Virus record (IMG/VR): IMGVR_UViG_3300040801_002154
Location: 1-33,278 of that record
Length of the DNA stretch: 33,278 bases
Direction: 5' to 3' (one strand)
Source of the DNA: a virus
Shown here in pieces: positions 7,573-31,209 of this stretch. Positions within the stretch are counted from its first letter, which is position 1, and the number at the start of each line of letters is the position of its first letter. The notes under the pieces are model-generated. The model did not search any database and was not told the origin of the DNA. It saw nothing but the letters and a program-made list of their open reading frames with translations. Both the position numbers and the translations under genes were made by a program.

Positions 7573-9837
7573 ATGGGAATAAATTGGACTAAAAAACCGT
7601 TTAGGAATAGTTTAAAAACGGTTTATACAGATATAGATACTTACTTAGAAAGTATCGAAAATGAAGGTAGTGGAGCAATAACAGGAAATAAATATTATGT
7701 AGACGGAAACAACGCAAATGCTGTAGATAGTACAGCAGCAGGAAGCGAAAGTGTACCATTTGCAACAATTGACTATGCTGTAGGCATAGCAACAGCTAAT
7801 AATGGTGATGTAATATTTGTAAAGCCTGGGCATACTGAAACTTTAGCAGCAGCAACAGGGCTTGTAATAGATAAAGCTGGAATTAGTATAATTGGTTTAG
7901 GAATTGGAAATGATAGGCCTAAACTAACTTTAGGAACATTAGCAACAACTACAATTACAATTTCAGCAGCAAGTGTAGCATTTAAAAATTTTATAATAGT
8001 TGGTGCTTTAGATGGTCTTAACTCAGCAATTACTGTAACTGGTGATTATTGTGATATAGATGTCGAATATTGGGATACAAGCGCAGCAGTAGAAAGCAAC
8101 ATTGCTATTACTTGTACAAGTGTTGATAAAGGTAAAATTAAATTAAAATACGTTGGATTTATTGCTGGAAACGCTGTAACAAACGCAATTGTATTAGATG
8201 GTTGTACTAGTTTGGCGGTTGATGTTGATTTTTACGGCAATTCATCCGCAGCAGTAGTAGAATTTTTAAATAATGCTTGTCACAATATTTTAGTTGGTGG
8301 ATATTTCTATAATGAATCTAGTGCAGCTTTAAGCCTAATTATAGATGATACAGCAACAGGTAGCACATGGTTTGCTTGTGGTTATGCAGGTAAAGAAGGG
8401 TATGACTTTATAGGTGGTTCAAGTGCAGCCTTATCAGCTTTAAGCACAACTGGTATAGCAGCAGCTTTATCTACAATAGATGGTTTCCATGATGTAACTG
8501 GTGCTGCTGATAGTGCAGCTAATAGTCAAATTCGTGATGTTGTAGGCAGAAAGGATGATACTGTAGCAGGTGATAGTGTAATAGCTCTAGTTAAGCAAAT
8601 TATAGCTTTAGCAGGAACACCAGCAGCAGATTTAGCAGCAGATATAGCAGCAATTAAAGCAGTTGTTGATATTATAAACACTGCAAGCGTAACAGAAATT
8701 GCTGAAATTCTTGCAGGAGTAGACACCGAAATTGCACAAATAATCGCAGCCGTTGCCGTGGTTGATGGATTACAGGATATTCCTAGTATTGACCTTGCTA
8801 CTAATGCAACAATGAATCAAGTGATAGGTAATAAATCAGATACAGTCGGCGGTACTAGTATTATAGCATTAGTTAAGCAGGCTTTAGCTGCATTGGTAGT
8901 GGTTGACGCTTTTCATGATGTTCCTAGTGCTGATAGTGCAGATAATACTGTAGTTAGTGATGTGCTTGGAAACAAGACAGATACAGTAGCTGGTAATAGT
9001 GTCATTGCTTTACTAAAACAAATAATTGAAGATACAGGGACAACCCTAGACGGAGCTATTAGTACTATAGATGGGTTATTAGATGTACCGACACAGGATT
9101 TAGCAACAGACGCAACAATTAATCAAGTTGTAGGTAAAAAGAGCGATACAACAGGCGGCACAAGTATAGTCGCATTAGTTAAACAGGCTTTAGCAGCAGT
9201 AGTAACTGTAGATGGTTTCCATGATGTTACAGGTGCAGCAGATAGCGCAGCAAATAGTCAAATTCGCGATGTAGTTGGAAGAAAAGACGACACCGTAGCA
9301 GGTGATAGCGTAATTGCTTTACTAAAACAAATTATAGTAGATTCTGGAACAGATATTCCTACATTGCTTGGTACTCCTGTTGCTGATGTAAGTACAGATG
9401 TAGCAGCTATTAAAACAGAAGCAGATAAAATTGAGACTCCTAGCGCAGCTTGTAATCGCCAAGCTGGTAAAACTCAAATATTTACAAAAAATATTACAGC
9501 AGCAGCAAACGCAGGAGTTACAACTGTTGGAACAATTACAACCCAACCTTGCTTAATTAAAAGAATTGTTCTTAGGGCAAATGGAGTAACAACAGCAGAT
9601 TTAACAAGTGCAGCAATAGAAGGTGGAGCTTCTCAAGCTGTTGAATTTATTTCAGCAGCAACAGCAGTAACAGCCTCAATTAATGCAGATGACGAACAGG
9701 TCGCATTTTCTGGAGCAGCAATGTTAAAGGCTACAAAAACTATTACAATAGATTTACAAGGCACAGGAGGAACAGCAGTTGATTTAGATGTAATTGTCGA
9801 ATATTGTTCTACAGTAGCAGGTGGTTACATAGCATAG
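7573..9837 (+). CDS. Large repetitive head-fibre or capsid surface protein (754 aa)
   Basis: Residues about 35-280 look like a right-handed beta helix: YYVDGNNANAVDST, then FATIDYAVGIA and GDVIFVKPGHTETL, followed by many short strands with turns of N and D. Residues about 300-600 contain five related helical repeats of two alternating types. The last 130 residues are a beta-rich, Ala/Thr-rich domain with a pair of cysteines, probably the exposed or trimer-forming tip. GGAGG precedes the ATG. The position next to the capsid gene suggests a fibre or decoration on the head rather than the tail; the alternative is a neck fibre. Exact function is inferred. Confidence 0.65.
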   Translation: MGINWTKKPFRNSLKTVYTDIDTYLESIENEGSGAITGNKYYVDGNNANAVDSTAAGSESVPFATIDYAVGIATANNGDVIFVKPGHTETLAAATGLVIDKAGISIIGLGIGNDRPKLTLGTLATTTITISAASVAFKNFIIVGALDGLNSAITVTGDYCDIDVEYWDTSAAVESNIAITCTSVDKGKIKLKYVGFIAGNAVTNAIVLDGCTSLAVDVDFYGNSSAAVVEFLNNACHNILVGGYFYNESSAALSLIIDDTATGSTWFACGYAGKEGYDFIGGSSAALSALSTTGIAAALSTIDGFHDVTGAADSAANSQIRDVVGRKDDTVAGDSVIALVKQIIALAGTPAADLAADIAAIKAVVDIINTASVTEIAEILAGVDTEIAQIIAAVAVVDGLQDIPSIDLATNATMNQVIGNKSDTVGGTSIIALVKQALAALVVVDAFHDVPSADSADNTVVSDVLGNKTDTVAGNSVIALLKQIIEDTGTTLDGAISTIDGLLDVPTQDLATDATINQVVGKKSDTTGGTSIVALVKQALAAVVTVDGFHDVTGAADSAANSQIRDVVGRKDDTVAGDSVIALLKQIIVDSGTDIPTLLGTPVADVSTDVAAIKTEADKIETPSAACNRQAGKTQIFTKNITAAANAGVTTVGTITTQPCLIKRIVLRANGVTTADLTSAAIEGGASQAVEFISAATAVTASINADDEQVAFSGAAMLKATKTITIDLQGTGGTAVDLDVIVEYCSTVAGGYIA
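8479..9336 (+). repeat. Alternating A-B-A-B-A protein repeats in the head-fibre gene
   Basis: Five repeats share a core of the form DxxGxKxDTxxGxSxxALxKQ. Copies 1, 3 and 5 are type A (RDVVGRKDDTVAGDSVIAL) and copies 2 and 4 type B (MNQVIGNKSDTVGGTSIIAL). Copy 1 (8479-8604) and copy 5 (9211-9336) match at 41 of 42 residues but differ in 19 of 42 codons, 18 of them silently. Confidence 0.85.
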
Positions 9838-23658: not shown

Positions 23659-23966
23659 TGAAATGTTTAAATCAATTTATGAAGTTGCCTGTTTTAAAAT
23701 ATAATAGTTTACTTGTCTCTAATTTTGATATAGTTCAGTCAAACAAACTTATAGAAGAATTAGAAGAATATATGGCAGAAAATGATTCAATAAAAAAAGC
23801 ATGTGAATTATTCGATATGCTTCAAGTATGCTTTAGTTTTTTTGATAAATTTGACAAGGATATCATTGACCAGGCTTATCAATTAAATATGAAAAAACAC
23901 AAGGATAGACAGAAATTTGATATTATAGGCAAGTATGAAATATTTAAAATTATGCATAAAAAATAA
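23658..23966 (+). CDS. MazG-like nucleotide pyrophosphohydrolase, small (102 aa)
   Basis: The metal-binding signature of the all-alpha NTP-PPase group is present: EELEE at residues 33-37 and ELFD at 50-53, with twelve residues between, followed by NMKKHKDRQKF near 77-87, which matches the K/N..K..R patch of the fold. Such proteins hydrolyse unusual or alarmone nucleotides. It overlaps the amidase stop (TAATG) and is the last gene of the late transcript. The family call rests on motif spacing. Confidence 0.65.
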   Translation: MKCLNQFMKLPVLKYNSLLVSNFDIVQSNKLIEELEEYMAENDSIKKACELFDMLQVCFSFFDKFDKDIIDQAYQLNMKKHKDRQKFDIIGKYEIFKIMHKK

Positions 23967-23990
23967 AAGCCCTTATTGGGCTTCTTTATT
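23967..23990. terminator. Bidirectional terminator between converging operons
   Basis: aagccc (23967-23972) and gggctt (23978-23983) form a hairpin with T-rich sequence to the right and A-rich to the left, so it can end both the rightward late transcript and the leftward operon B. Confidence 0.8.
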
Positions 23991-24273
23991 CTTCTATTTT
24001 TGTTAATATTTCAGGATTTTTCATTATTTCTTGACCAACTTCATATAAAAAATCTTCGACCTCTATTGATTTAATTTCTTTCTTTCCCATATACCACTTA
24101 TTTAAAATCCAATTGTCTCCAATCAAGTCTATAAACTTATCATAAAATGAATTATCTTCTCTTCCTTTTGGGCTATATTTAGCTAATACCCTATTTCCCT
24201 CTGTGTAAATTTCCCAATATTTTAAATGGTTTTTTATATGATTCCTTAATTTTTCTGCTCTTGACTTATCCAT
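23986..24273 (-). CDS. Hypothetical protein, last gene of operon B (95 aa)
   Basis: A 95-residue, largely helical protein with a basic first third (KSRAEKLRNHIKNHLKYWEI) and an aromatic middle (GDNWILNKWYMGKK). AGGAG lies about nine bases before the ATG. It is separated from the RHH gene by a 182-base region carrying repeats. No family is recognised. Small single-domain proteins in this place of a phage arm can be anti-defence factors, but nothing in the sequence proves that here. Confidence 0.6.
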   Translation of the reverse strand: MDKSRAEKLRNHIKNHLKYWEIYTEGNRVLAKYSPKGREDNSFYDKFIDLIGDNWILNKWYMGKKEIKSIEVEDFLYEVGQEIMKNPEILTKIEE

Positions 24274-24305
24274 GCTATCAGCTCCTATAATTTTATTTTT
24301 CTTAC

Positions 24306-24390
24306 ATCTCCTATGGAGCTAATTGCGGTCGTATTATTATTTTAGTTTCAATCTCCTACGGAGCTAATTTACCTAGATTGCGACCGCAAT
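24306..24390. repeat. 19-bp direct repeat pair and inverted operator-like repeats
   Basis: Two copies of atctccta(t/c)ggagctaatt lie at 24306-24324 and 24351-24369, 45 bp apart with one mismatch. Interleaved is the inverted repeat attgcggtcg (24322-24331) / cgaccgcaat (24381-24390). The right arm is also part of a small palindrome, attgcg-ac-cgcaat (24377-24390). The GC-rich arms stand out from the AT-rich surroundings. Confidence 0.7.
24345..24372 (-). ncRNA. Solitary CRISPR-repeat-like unit, candidate decoy RNA
   Basis: On the minus strand this reads gtaaattagctccgtaggag followed by attgaaac. The CTCC-GTA-GGAG hairpin followed by ATTGAAAC matches the form of type I-B and III CRISPR repeats, where Cas6 cuts at the hairpin base and leaves that eight-base tag. 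A decayed second copy is at 24306-24324. There is no array and no cas gene. It may be a phage decoy RNA of the kind that mimics repeats; this is inferred from shape only. Confidence 0.35.
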
Positions 24391-24455
24391 ATTATTTTAT
24401 ACTTTTTATGTAATTTAATCAATAGATTTTCAGATTACGACATCTTATTGTCGTT

Positions 24456-24848
24456 TTATTCATCTTCATCAATGTATTGATGGCTGAAAATTGTTTTATT
24501 TAAATTATTATGCTCTTCATCATCATGTTTATAAATTATATCTCCTTTGTTGTAGTTAAATTCCTCATATTTTATATTTTCATCTGCAATGATTTCTAAA
24601 ATATTTAAACTTCCATATCCATCATCAGTAATTTCCATTTCATCTTTTATCAAAACTTTAAAATTTTCAAATTCAGGTCCAATTGTTATAAAATCCTTTC
24701 TATATTCTTCTTTAATATTATTTTTATAATATTCCTTAATAGCTGTTTCTAATGTATTTGTAAAACTTCTATTTTCTTTAGTTGCTATTGTCTCGACCAT
24801 TTCTAGTATTTCTTTTTCTATACTTAAATTCTTTGATATTCTAGCCAT
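24456..24848 (-). CDS. Ribbon-helix-helix DNA-binding protein (130 aa)
   Basis: Residues 1-45 carry a ribbon-helix-helix fold: a strand (ARISKNLSI), a helix (EKEILEMVETIATKENR), then SFTNTLETAIKEYYKN. The remaining 85 residues are acidic and unlike an RHH domain, so this may be an antitoxin-like or regulatory fusion with a partner-binding tail. The ATG at 24848 has GGAGAGG six bases upstream; a TTG two codons earlier is less likely. It is the natural candidate to bind operators in operon B, although no toxin gene was recognised next to it. Confidence 0.7.
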   Translation of the reverse strand: MARISKNLSIEKEILEMVETIATKENRSFTNTLETAIKEYYKNNIKEEYRKDFITIGPEFENFKVLIKDEMEITDDGYGSLNILEIIADENIKYEEFNYNKGDIIYKHDDEEHNNLNKTIFSHQYIDEDE

Positions 24849-25151: not shown

Positions 25152-26171
25152 TCAATTACCTCCCAATATTTTTTTTGCTTTTTCAAATAAATCATTATTT
25201 TTCCAATTAAATTCATCTAAATGTTTATAAGTAATAGATCCGAAATTATAAGCATTAATTCCTAAAAAATCTTCTATTTCTTCATCGAATTCATAAACTT
25301 CAATAACATTTTTTTCATCATCATAACAAATTGTAATTTTTGTTTCCAAAGATAGTACTAGTAAGCTATTTAACTCGTCAAGATATGTATCATATCCAGA
25401 TTCTGCATCTCCGCACTTGCCATGTAGATTTACCCAACTTAGTTCTCCATTATCTTCTTTATAAAGAAGTTCATAATTTTTAATAATAATTGTATTTCCA
25501 TAGCTATCTTTAAATGTTTGTCCCTCTAAGTCTAAAAGCCTTGCTTCTATTTCTTTTACGATACTATAACCTGGTATTTCTAAAAGTCTTTTTTCAACTA
25601 ATACTAAATAGTCCCTATCAGATTCTTGTACTTCTGTAATATATCCTTTTTCTTCTAGTGCTTCTTGTAATTCAGATACATTGCAATTTCCTATTGCTAC
25701 TTTTCCCATTTCTTGTAGATGTTCAATTGCACCTTCAACGTTTATTTCTTCTTCCATTTCTTCAATTTCAAGTTCATCATCTTCAATAACTCTAGTAATC
25801 CAGTTTCCGTTATCCCAATATTCCCATATACAAGTAGTTTCCATATCTTCTAAATTATCTAAATACCACGTACCACTATCATTATAAACTACATCTGCAT
25901 TTATACTTTCTTCCCATTCTGCTAATAAAGTAGAATTATAAGCAGCTGCGTCTAAATCATTGTATAAACTTTCATCTTTTAATATTTCTTCTAAATCATC
26001 ATTATTTTTTATTTCCATTTCTAAATGCTTAACAAAATCATCTTTTTCATATATTCTCATTCCTCTTAAATCAACCATTTCTTTTATTTCACTTTCTAGA
26101 ACTTCAAATCTAGTAGGTTCGTTTGTTTCAGTATTAATATTAATATAATCAACCAATGTAATTTTTTTCAT
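25152..26171 (-). CDS. Very acidic hypothetical protein (339 aa)
   Basis: A 339-residue soluble protein with a great excess of Glu and Asp over Lys and Arg, including clusters such as EDDELEIEEMEEEINVEG near residue 140. No cysteine-rich or membrane segments. The segments YNDSGTWYLDNLEDMETT and IWEYWDNGNWI suggest small beta modules. AAAGGAG lies 8 bases before the ATG, and its own promoter with operators is just upstream. It is the first gene of operon B. Strong negative charge is a mark of DNA-mimic anti-restriction and anti-CRISPR proteins, but also of other proteins, so the role is not decided. Confidence 0.65.
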   Translation of the reverse strand: MKKITLVDYININTETNEPTRFEVLESEIKEMVDLRGMRIYEKDDFVKHLEMEIKNNDDLEEILKDESLYNDLDAAAYNSTLLAEWEESINADVVYNDSGTWYLDNLEDMETTCIWEYWDNGNWITRVIEDDELEIEEMEEEINVEGAIEHLQEMGKVAIGNCNVSELQEALEEKGYITEVQESDRDYLVLVEKRLLEIPGYSIVKEIEARLLDLEGQTFKDSYGNTIIIKNYELLYKEDNGELSWVNLHGKCGDAESGYDTYLDELNSLLVLSLETKITICYDDEKNVIEVYEFDEEIEDFLGINAYNFGSITYKHLDEFNWKNNDLFEKAKKILGGN

Positions 26172-26199
26172 AATATAATCTCCTTTAATTTTTTATCGT

Positions 26200-26250
26200 G
26201 TAGCAATTTGCTACAATTACATATTATCATAGCACTATGCTATGTGTCAA
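26200..26250 (-). promoter_or_regulatory. Promoter and twin operators of operon B
   Basis: On the minus strand TTGACA (26250-26245) and TAATAT (26226-26221) are 18 bases apart. Between them lies catagca-N3-tgctatg (26228-26244), and downstream gtagca-N3-tgctac (26200-26214). Both share the core TAGCA-N3-TGCTA; their centres are 29 bp apart. The first would block RNA polymerase directly, the second is in the leader. Confidence 0.75.
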
Positions 26251-26302: not shown

Positions 26303-26749
26303 CTTTTCCCTTTCCTCTTCTTCATCTTCAACATAATTAATATTTAATATATTAGTTGTAGCATTCTTTCTTATCAATAATCCATCAATTTGTGCCTTTT
26401 TATATAGTTCTTTTCTTTTGTTACTATCTATACCAAGACTATTTTCTATGTTTAGCCTAGATGGTATTTTATCGCCATCAGAATTATCCAAAATGAAGCT
26501 TTTGAAACGTATATATAAATTGTCTTTAAAAATTAGGATATTGGGATTTAATATATCATTTTCAACTATATTTTCATCAATTTCGTTTTTATTCTTAAAT
26601 CTTCTAGCTATTTCTAATACTTCATTTGAAGTCTTTGGAGCAACATATTTTATATTTATCCTAATTTCATCATATCCCAATTTGATATCCGAATGTTTGT
26701 TAATTTTAGTAAACAAATTTTTCTTTAATCGCTTAATTAATTTTGTCAA
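26291..26749 (-). CDS. FtsK-partner hypothetical protein (152 aa)
   Basis: A 152-residue protein, basic at its start (TKLIKRLKKNLFTKINKH). Residues 80-145 look like a winged helix (RLNIENSLGIDSNKRKELY then a two-strand wing ending LLIRKN..NILNINY), so DNA binding is likely. It starts at TTG with GGAGG eight bases upstream, inside the 3' end of the FtsK-like gene (17-base overlap), showing tight coupling. The C-terminal EEEEREKRSH is charged. A DNA-guiding helper for the ATPase is the reasonable guess; not a known family. Confidence 0.6.
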   Translation of the reverse strand: MTKLIKRLKKNLFTKINKHSDIKLGYDEIRINIKYVAPKTSNEVLEIARRFKNKNEIDENIVENDILNPNILIFKDNLYIRFKSFILDNSDGDKIPSRLNIENSLGIDSNKRKELYKKAQIDGLLIRKNATTNILNINYVEDEEEEREKRSH

Positions 26750-28079
26750 GATTTACACCTCCATGAAGTTTATTTGATAAATCCTCATAAACTTTATTGT
26801 ATTTTATTTCATCAATAAAAAATGCTTTAAACTTTTTTACCTCTTCTATGTACTCCATTAAAAATTCACCATCTTTTAAATTCTCTGTTCCATATATTCC
26901 AGCCATTCTTTGTGTGTTTTTATCTTTTATTCTAGCTGAAAACTTTGTACCAAATCTATCACGAATATTAGTATTTATTTGGCTTCCCGATGGTCTTTGT
27001 GTTGCTCCAATTACAATAATTCCTGCTGCTCTTCCTTGGTTCATTATCCTTGTCAAAGTATTTTCTATTGAATCAGTTAACTTTGTATCTGTTGTCAATC
27101 TTATATCGCTCATTTCATCTATTATAAGTACAATATAAGATATTTTTTTACTAGGATTTTTTTTATTATATTGACTTAATTTTTTAGTTCCAGAAGCTTT
27201 TAATTTCTGGTATCTGCTATCCATTTCTTTTTCGAGATCTAACAGTTGATCGTTAAACTCATTTAATTTCTCAATTATTGTTGTGTTATTAAAATCTGAA
27301 TATTGATACAGTTCTACTCCACCCTTAAAATCAACCATTATATAAAATATATTGTCATTCAAATACATCATAGATTGTATTATTACATTAAGTAAATTGC
27401 TTTTTCCTCCACCCTGCATACCTGCTATAAATGTATTTGTAAGCTTTATTAAATCAAATAATAATATATTTCCTTTTTCATCTATACCAGTTGCAAACAT
27501 AATCTCATGTTTTTTGTTATTTTCAATTTTGTGAAGATATTCTTCAAATAGATATATTTGTTTAAGTTTTTTCTCCTTATTACCTTCAGCTATTTTAGTT
27601 TTTATTGTTATCAGTCTAAAGTTTTTAGGATCTCTTTTTGTTGTTTCAATTTCTCTATTTAGAAAATGTTCTATACTTGCTAATTTTTTTTCTATTTCTG
27701 CTAAAGGAATAAAACTATTTAATTTAAATGTTCCAGTATTTTTATTTGATTCAATTACTCTTACTTTATTATCAAATATCTTAGATATACCCTTGTATTT
27801 CAAGGCAACTGCATTTTCTTTAAGTTCCTTATATATTCCTTTTATAAAAAAATATAATATTGGATTTATAAAATAAAATCCTGGTGCAGCTTTGTTATAA
27901 ATCAAGAAAATATATGATATAATCAAATAGCAAATAAACAAAAATTTCTCTTTGGTTTTGAATATGGAGCGGATATTTAAAAATTCCGCTCCTGCTCTCT
28001 TTGATATTTTAAATAGTCTATTCAAGCCCCACTCGAAAATTTGTACTATTCTTTCATCTTGTTTGCTACTTTTAGCCAC
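26733..28079 (-). CDS. Membrane-anchored FtsK/SpoIIIE-type DNA translocase (448 aa)
   Basis: The ATPase has Walker A GMQGGGKS (residues 220-227), Walker B IVLIIDE (316-322), and a following IIVIGATQRPS, then TNIRDRFGTKF, all typical of the FtsK/SpoIIIE/TcpA family. Two N-terminal hydrophobic segments lie at about 45-62 and 68-83. It lacks the long linker and gamma domain of chromosomal FtsK, so the size resembles conjugation coupling proteins of Tn916 or pCW3. The GTG at 28079 has GGAGG eight bases upstream, inside the previous gene. The protein would move DNA at the membrane; whether for segregation, transfer or exit is unknown. Confidence 0.85.
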   Translation of the reverse strand: MAKSSKQDERIVQIFEWGLNRLFKISKRAGAEFLNIRSIFKTKEKFLFICYLIISYIFLIYNKAAPGFYFINPILYFFIKGIYKELKENAVALKYKGISKIFDNKVRVIESNKNTGTFKLNSFIPLAEIEKKLASIEHFLNREIETTKRDPKNFRLITIKTKIAEGNKEKKLKQIYLFEEYLHKIENNKKHEIMFATGIDEKGNILLFDLIKLTNTFIAGMQGGGKSNLLNVIIQSMMYLNDNIFYIMVDFKGGVELYQYSDFNNTTIIEKLNEFNDQLLDLEKEMDSRYQKLKASGTKKLSQYNKKNPSKKISYIVLIIDEMSDIRLTTDTKLTDSIENTLTRIMNQGRAAGIIVIGATQRPSGSQINTNIRDRFGTKFSARIKDKNTQRMAGIYGTENLKDGEFLMEYIEEVKKFKAFFIDEIKYNKVYEDLSNKLHGGVNLDKIN

Positions 28080-28326
28080 CGAATACACCTCCTACAAAAT
28101 TTACTAATAATTTAACCATTTCAACAAATCCATTTAAATCATTAACAGCCCACAATAAAAGCCCTGCAAGCAATACAGACATTAAAGCCGCATAAGTCTT
28201 GCCACTCAACATATTTTTACCAACTATAATAATCATGCCCATTCCTACTACTGCTGTTATAATTCCATTAAACTGTGTTAATACAGTTGTATCTATTTTC
28301 ATACTATTCATTATTAAACTTAACAT
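28072..28326 (-). CDS. Small multi-helix membrane protein, TcpD/VirB2-like shape (84 aa)
   Basis: Two or three hydrophobic segments (residues about 18-37, 44-62 and 66-82) with a Gly-rich C terminus (VGGVFGG). The ATG at 28326 has AGGAGGG at good distance; a TTG at 28365 would add twelve codons but lacks as good a site. Length and shape match small membrane subunits found beside coupling ATPases of Gram-positive conjugation modules. No signal-peptide site is clear. Overlaps the FtsK-like start by eight bases. Confidence 0.6.
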   Translation of the reverse strand: MLSLIMNSMKIDTTVLTQFNGIITAVVGMGMIIIVGKNMLSGKTYAALMSVLLAGLLLWAVNDLNGFVEMVKLLVNFVGGVFGG

Positions 28327-28357
28327 CATTGACCCTCCTATTATTTTAAATATAAAT

Positions 28358-28708
28358 TTATTCAAGATACTTCACTCCTTTTTTGAAATATATCGTTTCT
28401 GTAGTCGTAGTTGTATTTGTTGTTTTCCTTTCAATTCTATCCACGACAGGTGCGTTATTATCTTCTTTATAATCCATATAATCATTATTAAAATTAGATA
28501 CTTCATATTTTGGCTTATTTTCAAATTGTCCAGATATAAAAAGCGAAAATGGTATCATTCCAAAAAACAACAATGCTTTTGTCCAGCTTGCCTCCATAGC
28601 AAAATAAATTATAAATGTTGATATGACAGCAATTCCAAAAATTATTCGTGTTAGAGGAATTATAAATATGTTTTCAATTCCTTTAAATATAGAAAATATT
28701 ATTTTCAC
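28358..28708 (-). CDS. Two-helix membrane protein, TcpE-like position (116 aa)
   Basis: Residues 14-36 and 43-60 are hydrophobic, followed by a polar tail of about 55 residues with a run of threonines (TTNTTTTTET). The start codon is GTG with GGAGG eight bases upstream. The arrangement (short N terminus, two helices, cytosolic tail) is like TcpE-type proteins next to coupling ATPases in conjugative elements, but similarity is by shape only. Its 3' end carries the GGAG of the neighbouring gene, so the two are linked. Confidence 0.55.
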   Translation of the reverse strand: MKIIFSIFKGIENIFIIPLTRIIFGIAVISTFIIYFAMEASWTKALLFFGMIPFSLFISGQFENKPKYEVSNFNNDYMDYKEDNNAPVVDRIERKTTNTTTTTETIYFKKGVKYLE

Positions 28709-28711
28709 TTC

Positions 28712-28936
28712 CTACACCTCCTGATCTTTTCTAAAATCATATATTTTAATTTGATATTCCAGTATTTTATTTTTATAGTAATTTATATATAATTCATATC
28801 TTTTTTTAAAATCATATTCACTATTTATTTTTATCCAACGTTCAATTTTTAATCTTTCCCACATTGCAAGACTTTTTTTATATCTATATAACTTCCTACA
28901 TAATAATTTTATATGTCTTTTTTTTGCTTCATCCAT
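28712..28936 (-). CDS. Basic helical hypothetical protein (74 aa)
   Basis: A 74-residue protein rich in Lys, Arg and Tyr with one cysteine, probably two long helices (RHIKLLCRKLYRYKKSLAMW; YELYINYYKNKILEYQIKIY). The ATG at 28936 has GGAGGG seven bases upstream within the end of the previous gene. No family is recognised. A positively charged surface would suit contact with DNA or acidic membrane lipids between the membrane proteins around it. Confidence 0.6.
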   Translation of the reverse strand: MDEAKKRHIKLLCRKLYRYKKSLAMWERLKIERWIKINSEYDFKKRYELYINYYKNKILEYQIKIYDFRKDQEV

Positions 28937-28938
28937 CA

Positions 28939-29937
28939 CTATCCCTCCAATACAAATGTTTTGTTCCCATTTGTTTTTATTGTTTTTTCCTTTTCTAGTT
29001 GTCTTTTAGCAGCTTGTATTGTTATTTTTTTAAGTCCTGTCAATTCTATCAATTTTGTTAAAGATGGTGCTTGATTACCTGTTTTATATTTAATAATTGC
29101 ATTTTTTACAATTTCCAAATCATTTGCGCTGACAGAATCATAAACGTTTTTGTTTTCTGTATCATTGTTATAATTTAAATCGTTTTCTGTCTCATTTGCG
29201 CTTAGTGAATTTAATTCACTTTTTCCTATCTCAATCTGCTTTATTTCTTTATTTTCAATTTGCTTATTTTTTGTTACTCTGTCCAAGTCAGGTTTTAGTA
29301 ATCTAAGTTTTGGTTTAATTTCTTCAATTTTTATTTCTTCTGTTCCTACAACTTTTTTATGTAGATTATCAATTAATCTTTCAGGAATTATTATCATTAT
29401 TTCTTTTAATTTATCTATGTTTGATATTGCATAAGTTTTTCTATCATAATCCTTTTCTAAAAACATTATCGGTGCAAGTATTGGTAGGAATATTATAAAA
29501 GCTTCTACAAGTATAGAAAGGGACATAGTCGTCAAAAACTTAGAAAACTTAAGCGGTATAATATTTAAAATTTGCATGTAATCATATAATAAAGTTGTTA
29601 TTGCACTTGCTGGTGATCTTTCTATTTCTCCACCAGACATAAAGAAGTTTAAGCTGGCCATAATAGATAAGAAAAAACAAATTTTGAGATAAAACAATAC
29701 TTTTCTTTCTCTTGCCGAATCTCTGTATTTCATAAATGGATAAGCAACAGCAAGCATAATTTTTATAAATTCTAACATTCCAGCAAGTCCACCCATTGCC
29801 CACATATTCCAACCACTTTGACTATTAGAGTAGAATACAATTGTAAAGTAAGCAGATAAACAAGCAAGTAGCAATGTACAGATGTAACATAATATTGCAA
29901 ATAATACTTTTGGGATAGTTATAAAAAATTCCTTCAT
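28939..29937 (-). CDS. Four-helix membrane protein with winged-helix tail (332 aa)
   Basis: Four hydrophobic segments at about 8-35, 47-68, 79-100 and 136-160, then a charged linker (about 165-265) and a C-terminal winged helix-turn-helix (about 270-330; APSLTKLIELTGLKKITIQAAKRQLEKEK). So the protein sits in the membrane with a DNA-binding domain in the cytosol. No family is recognised. It overlaps the gene before by an ATGA junction. It could tether phage DNA to the membrane near the FtsK-like motor, or sense something at the membrane and switch transcription. Confidence 0.7.
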   Translation of the reverse strand: MKEFFITIPKVLFAILCYICTLLLACLSAYFTIVFYSNSQSGWNMWAMGGLAGMLEFIKIMLAVAYPFMKYRDSARERKVLFYLKICFFLSIMASLNFFMSGGEIERSPASAITTLLYDYMQILNIIPLKFSKFLTTMSLSILVEAFIIFLPILAPIMFLEKDYDRKTYAISNIDKLKEIMIIIPERLIDNLHKKVVGTEEIKIEEIKPKLRLLKPDLDRVTKNKQIENKEIKQIEIGKSELNSLSANETENDLNYNNDTENKNVYDSVSANDLEIVKNAIIKYKTGNQAPSLTKLIELTGLKKITIQAAKRQLEKEKTIKTNGNKTFVLEG

Positions 29938-31180: not shown

Positions 31181-31209
31181 GTCACGTGATATCACGCTAC
31201 AAGTCACGT
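31181..31209. promoter_or_regulatory. Palindrome and direct repeats at the replication gene leader
   Basis: cgtgatatcacg (31185-31196) is a perfect 12-bp palindrome, and gtcacgt occurs at 31181 and 31203, 22 bp apart. The sites lie 24-50 bases before the start codon, where a repressor could act. Confidence 0.55.

Follow-up and report, generated by a model that had tools for sequence, protein, structure and literature searches.

The repeat-like element upstream of an orphan gene in a phage genome probably controls an accessory cassette with a single gene (a moron), as an ordinary repressor-controlled switch. The element lies in the window, i.e., the whole 33,278-nt stretch of DNA that was analysed (IMG/VR virus record IMGVR_UViG_3300040801_002154), which encodes a DnaD-like replisome organiser and a terminase closest to that of a Clostridioides phage (61%). 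A probability of about 0.58 is assigned to the reading of the element as a regulatory leader that serves an Aca-style accessory gene. This reading accounts for the duplication of the element, its palindrome, its position and its absence from a related phage (L056), but leaves unexplained the exact placement of a CRISPR-like tag, ATTGAAAC, after the first hairpin copy. The locus is small and testable: an orphan 95-aa gene with a putative Aca-style operator lies in a variable island, and the phage has Clostridia-like genes. A functional CRISPR resemblance would add an RNA anti-CRISPR or a leader that senses CRISPR; otherwise, the locus is an instructive case of CRISPR repeats being imitated by duplicated operators and leader hairpins.

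A one-gene accessory cassette

The cassette and its surroundings comprise the following features:

23,965–23,985, unstranded: bidirectional terminator hairpin, left-hand boundary of the cassette
23,986–24,436, minus strand: cassette (leader and 95-aa gene), absent from L056
23,986–24,273, minus strand: gene for the 95-aa orphan protein, the cargo of the cassette
24,437–24,454, plus strand: conserved hairpin ACGACA..TGTCGT with a T-run, right-hand boundary of the cassette
24,456–24,848, minus strand: ribbon-helix-helix-like regulator gene, about 51–52% identical to its L056 counterpart

The extent of the cassette is revealed by comparison with L056, a syntenic relative found by a holin-based search, whose identities to the window are 63% for the last late gene, 76% for a 332-aa protein and 85% for the replisome organiser. 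In L056, the late-operon terminator is directly followed by the hairpin ACGACA..TGTCGT and then by the regulator gene, whereas the window holds about 450 bp extra between the two conserved hairpins, containing the element and the 95-aa gene. Since L056 lacks exactly the leader and the 95-aa gene, the two form one accessory cassette. A more distant relative, L029, likewise lacks the region.

The element is intergenic and co-directional with the 95-aa gene. The preliminary description had placed it inside an early operon; it is, instead, the leader of a separate one-gene cassette. The presence of small unknown genes nearby is upheld, the neighbours being small proteins without database relatives; one of them, which is ribbon-helix-helix-like, would be the DNA-binding protein. 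For the 95-aa protein, no relatives were found in phages, plasmids, IMG/VR, Pfam, PHROGs, NCBIfam or PADLOC, and its structure model (pLDDT 58) is too poor for a fold search.

On the other side of the regulator, the segment leading to the FtsK-like operon in L056 (8700–9240) is also accessory, with no match to the 104-aa and 339-aa genes of the window. The result is a variable island around the conserved regulator.

Tandem duplication of the hairpin block

The element itself is made of the following parts:

24,345–24,399, minus strand: block A, TAAAATAATATTGCGGTCGCAATCTAGGTAAATTAGCTCCGTAGGAGATTGAAAC, tandem duplicate with block B
24,306–24,344, minus strand: block B, TAAAATAATAATACGACCGCAATTAGCTCCATAGGAGAT, 10 nt shorter than block A
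24,345–24,369, minus strand: copy 1, AATTAGCTCCGTAGGAGATTGAAAC, hairpin CTCC-GTA-GGAG abutting the CRISPR-like tag ATTGAAAC
24,301–24,324, minus strand: copy 2, AATTAGCTCCATAGGAGATGTAAG, hairpin present, tag lost, predicted anti-Shine-Dalgarno arm

The minus-strand hairpin and tag first reported for this site are confirmed at 24,363–24,345, with a stem of 4 bp and a tag of 8 nt. The report of a decayed second copy 45 bp away is equally borne out, the 19-nt cores (24,351–24,369 and 24,306–24,324) being 95% identical. In copy 2, the hairpin remains intact (CTCC-ATA-GGAG, 24,318–24,308, minus strand) and the tag alone is lost, ATGTAAG standing where copy 1 has ATTGAAAC. No further match to the 19-nt core was found elsewhere in the window with up to three mismatches (0.04 expected), and CTCCNTAGGAG is confined to the two copies within the window (0.01 expected).

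The unit had been taken as solitary, but the hairpin ends a larger, tandemly duplicated 55-nt block, consisting of a promoter-like -10, the TTGCGGTCGCAA palindrome and the terminal hairpin. The duplication thus exceeds what was described earlier by the -10-like stretch and the TTGCGRYCGCAA palindrome, with a 10-nt indel between the copies. Local alignment of the two neighbourhoods pairs TAAAATAATATTGCGGTCGCAATCTAGGTAAATTAGCTCCGTAGGAGAT with TAAAATAATAATACGACCGC, a gap of 10 nt and AATTAGCTCCATAGGAGAT, for a score of 43.5 (versus 28.5 as the highest among 3000 shuffles). The 20 nt that separate the hairpin copies are homologous to what precedes copy 1, and the alignment, therefore, indicates that this stretch is a copy of the sequence upstream of hairpin 1, rather than a CRISPR spacer acquired elsewhere.

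Operator-like palindromes and the adjacent regulator

Three features precede or overlap the hairpins:

24,377–24,390, unstranded: palindrome ATTGCGACCGCAAT (minus strand TTGCGGTC), proposed operator
24,323–24,335, unstranded: second, decayed operator-like site, TTGCGGTCGTATT
24,394–24,422, minus strand: promoter-like TTGATT-17-TAAAAT just upstream of the palindrome, a consensus match only

Promoter-like matches are no commoner in the window than in shuffled sequences. The string TTGCGGTC (or GACCGCAA) is the sole G/C-rich 8-mer that the element has in common with the L056 regulator promoter region, where it is included in a dyad, TTTGCGGT-N7-ACCGCAAA (8717–8738), located just downstream of a -10-like box and upstream of the regulator gene. 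L056 (15.3 kb) has just two occurrences of TTGCGGT, which are the arms of this one dyad; the window has three, two of them inside blocks A and B. None of 749 other L056 pieces has a G/C-rich 8-mer in common with the element; for the L056 promoter, such sharing is seen in 3 of 657 other pieces of the window. Because the dyad lies in the promoter of the L056 regulator, the palindrome is probably the operator of the adjacent ribbon-helix-helix-like protein, this putative assignment being drawn from one relative.

Aca repressors of anti-CRISPR genes act on inverted repeats in promoters that drive small early genes. The arrangement seen here appears similar: a small putative DNA-binding protein is encoded beside a small orphan gene, and an inverted repeat (TTGCGGTC) at the promoter of the latter is also present in the regulator promoter of one relative. 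The locus differs from an Aca-regulated anti-CRISPR operon in that regulator and cassette are separate transcription units, the regulator gene of the window belonging to an operon with another promoter. The anti-CRISPR-type context suggested at the outset stands in part: an accessory cassette adjoining a ribbon-helix-helix-like regulator fits an anti-defence locus, but neither cassette nor regulator matches any known Acr or Aca family.

The class of the regulator is suggested by a profile of the two regulator proteins, which matched Arc, CopG and the EndoAI antitoxin in one register over residues 1–52 (E 0.15 to 1.3), although a better score (0.0027) went to an unrelated Cas9 chain, in a different part of the profile. 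These ribbon-helix-helix matches are below Pfam cut-offs, and the structure model of the regulator (pLDDT 46) is too poor for a fold search. By analogy with Aca repressors, the protein encoded at 24,456–24,848 would bind the palindromes over the transcription start and repress the cassette. The duplicated block, together with an operator-like palindrome common to the promoter of a relative, would account for most of the anatomy without CRISPR.

Predicted folding of the leader RNA

A second level of control is suggested by RNA folding, and involves one additional feature:

24,277–24,285, minus strand: Shine-Dalgarno site of the 95-aa gene, GGAGCTGAT, with AUUAGCUCC of copy 2 (24,323–24,315) as its predicted pairing partner

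The predicted pairing spans 9 bp between AUUAGCUCC and GGAGCUGAU, which contains the Shine-Dalgarno site, and is kept in all eight leader lengths folded. For leaders starting at 24,387 or 24,396, the copy 1 hairpin is predicted with a probability of about 0.9 and the copy 2 hairpin is not formed; the copy 1 hairpin is lost in the prediction for one shorter leader with downstream sequence. The folding z-score is -2.95, and the predicted Shine-Dalgarno occlusion of the 95-aa gene ranks second among 48 genes, with several others close. In the regulatory model, copy 1 would fold on itself as a small hairpin, and translation would be kept low by pairing of the copy 2 arm, AAUUAGCUCC, with the Shine-Dalgarno site; the ATTGAAAC tag after copy 1 would be mostly a coincidence.

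Resemblance to CRISPR repeats and competing explanations

Solitary repeat units and RNA anti-CRISPRs (Racr) have been described by Camara-Wilpert et al. 2023 (PMC10651486); they are found near promoters and acr genes, and a Racr may share its transcript with an acr gene, as in a bicistronic acr-racr locus (PMC10651486). A possible but less probable alternative is that copy 1 is such an RNA: it would mimic a host repeat, Cas6 would bind or cut between GGAG and ATTGAAAC, and Cas proteins would be sequestered, maybe jointly with the 95-aa protein. This decoy reading accounts for the exact tag and suits the type of locus; it is also compatible with the regulatory reading, given that a Racr can be cotranscribed with an acr gene. 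The element is similar to a Racr in its intergenic repeat-like hairpin with canonical hairpin-and-tag geometry, on the presumed transcribed strand of a phage accessory locus with a regulator and a small orphan gene alongside. In line with the original statement that array and cas genes are absent, no CRISPR array was found in the record, and a search of it for Cas6 (PF10040) gave no match. The CRISPR resemblance is genuine in geometry but statistically weak, and it is partly built in, as the site was picked for its tag. A hairpin of at least 4 bp with at least 3 G/C pairs, followed by ATTGAAAC, is expected by chance 0.017 times per window (first-order Markov sequence of the same composition), which makes it noteworthy in a single window, but not rare across a large scan.

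The closest repeat was obtained by BLAST of 34 nt against a plasmid collection, which returned two records, one being a real array of 22 repeats (19 nt exact, E = 0.3). Its repeat, GTTTCAATCTCCTACGGAGTATTTACAGCTTATACC of Allomeiothermus silvanus pMESIL01, shares 19 identical nt (GTTTCAATCTCCTACGGAG) with the element, but the other 17 nt differ and the host is distant. Rfam gave no match at the gathering cut-off. At a relaxed threshold, CRISPR-DR31 (RF01357) aligned over 41 nt (24,345–24,385) with 19.5 bits, against a gathering value of 35 and with E = 9.2 in the whole-window search; GUUUCAAUC..UACG..GCUAA and the UUGC-ACC ends are shared, but the inner stem sequence is unlike. Weaker sub-threshold matches to DR10, DR9, DR60 and DR36 at the same site bring the CRISPR-DR families to five. 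Against the decoy reading, no full-length host-type repeat was found in the plasmid, phage and IMG/VR collections or Rfam. The 21 IMG/VR matches to CTCCNNNGGAGATTGAAAC are all single, chance-like and inside open frames, without any array; CTCCRTAGGAGATTGAAAC has none in IMG/VR; a literature text search for the repeat strings returned no CRISPR paper; and the Calditrichaeota-labelled MAG containing L029 holds no array-like match. The published SRUFinder rules ask for a known repeat to be matched at 90% identity or more across 90% or more of its length, with a bit score of at least 41.1; the best match found here has 38 bits and 19/36 nt. They also exclude units with another repeat-like copy (>70% identity) within 100 bp, whereas a 95% identical 19-nt copy, duplicated together with the operator-like palindrome, lies 45 bp away. 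The proposal of a Cas6-type tag keeps its geometry, its presumed transcribed strand and the 19-nt array match, but the tag is missing from copy 2; that of an RNA decoy keeps the repeat-like geometry and the accessory locus, but no host repeat was found in these collections and the published rules speak against it. Separately, exact AGCTCCRTAGGAGAT was tried in IMG/VR and rejected, its 27 stretches being in unrelated contexts and none having TGAAAC directly after.

Other explanations are much less probable. A palindromic site acting as DNA only, for instance as a replication origin or in transfer or recombination, is very improbable. It would suit the recurrence of palindromes in this AT-rich intergenic region and the FtsK-like and DnaD-like genes of the phage, but the site is upstream of a gene, is missing from L056, which retains the FtsK-like and DnaD-like genes, and has its palindrome also in a promoter. 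A degenerate CRISPR mini-array or creA-like guide, in which host Cas6 would process copy 1 along with a short spacer and a terminal repeat that has decayed, is very improbable. Its order and polarity (an intact repeat followed by one whose 3' end is degenerate) agree with the element, and creA genes do have two degenerate repeats each (PMC8501985). In place of an unrelated spacer of normal length, however, the 'spacer' has just 20 nt, and its homology to the sequence upstream of copy 1 points to an origin by whole-block duplication, rather than spacer acquisition. The least probable reading, highly speculative, makes the leader an RNA switch sensing host Cas6: binding of Cas6 to the repeat-like hairpin would change the fold of the leader and release the Shine-Dalgarno site from its pairing with copy 2, so that the 95-aa (anti-defence) protein would be made only where the host has active CRISPR; copy 1 might be a decoy too.

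Other features of the window and its relatives

Protein searches of IMG/VR found no relatives of the 95-aa, 132-aa, 339-aa and FtsK-like proteins. The 339-aa orphan protein (25,152–26,171; pI 4.1, 25% Asp+Glu), for which no relatives were found, may be a DNA mimic or anti-restriction protein. Its gene has a promoter, TTGACA-16-GATAAT (26,199–26,250), with 11 of 12 consensus bases and two palindromes, CATAGCACTATGCTATG in the spacer and TGTAGCAATTTGCTACA near the start, which are probable operators; such promoter palindromes favour the regulatory reading of the cassette leader.

An FtsK/SpoIIIE-like ATPase is encoded at 26,733–29,937 beside small hydrophobic and 332-aa proteins, and is also found in L029 (61%) and L056 (41%). 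L029 is a phage contig related to the window that is binned in a Calditrichaeota-labelled MAG (RQOG01000151.1), probably through contamination. The array of the Allomeiothermus plasmid pMESIL01 (L030, 1378–2912; about 22 repeats) is unannotated and lies beside a VapC toxin-antitoxin pair, with no cas gene within the 3 kb examined. Finally, a palindrome, CGTGATATCACG, flanked by GTCACGT repeats, is located just upstream of the replisome organiser gene (31,185–31,205), and is possibly an operator or an origin.
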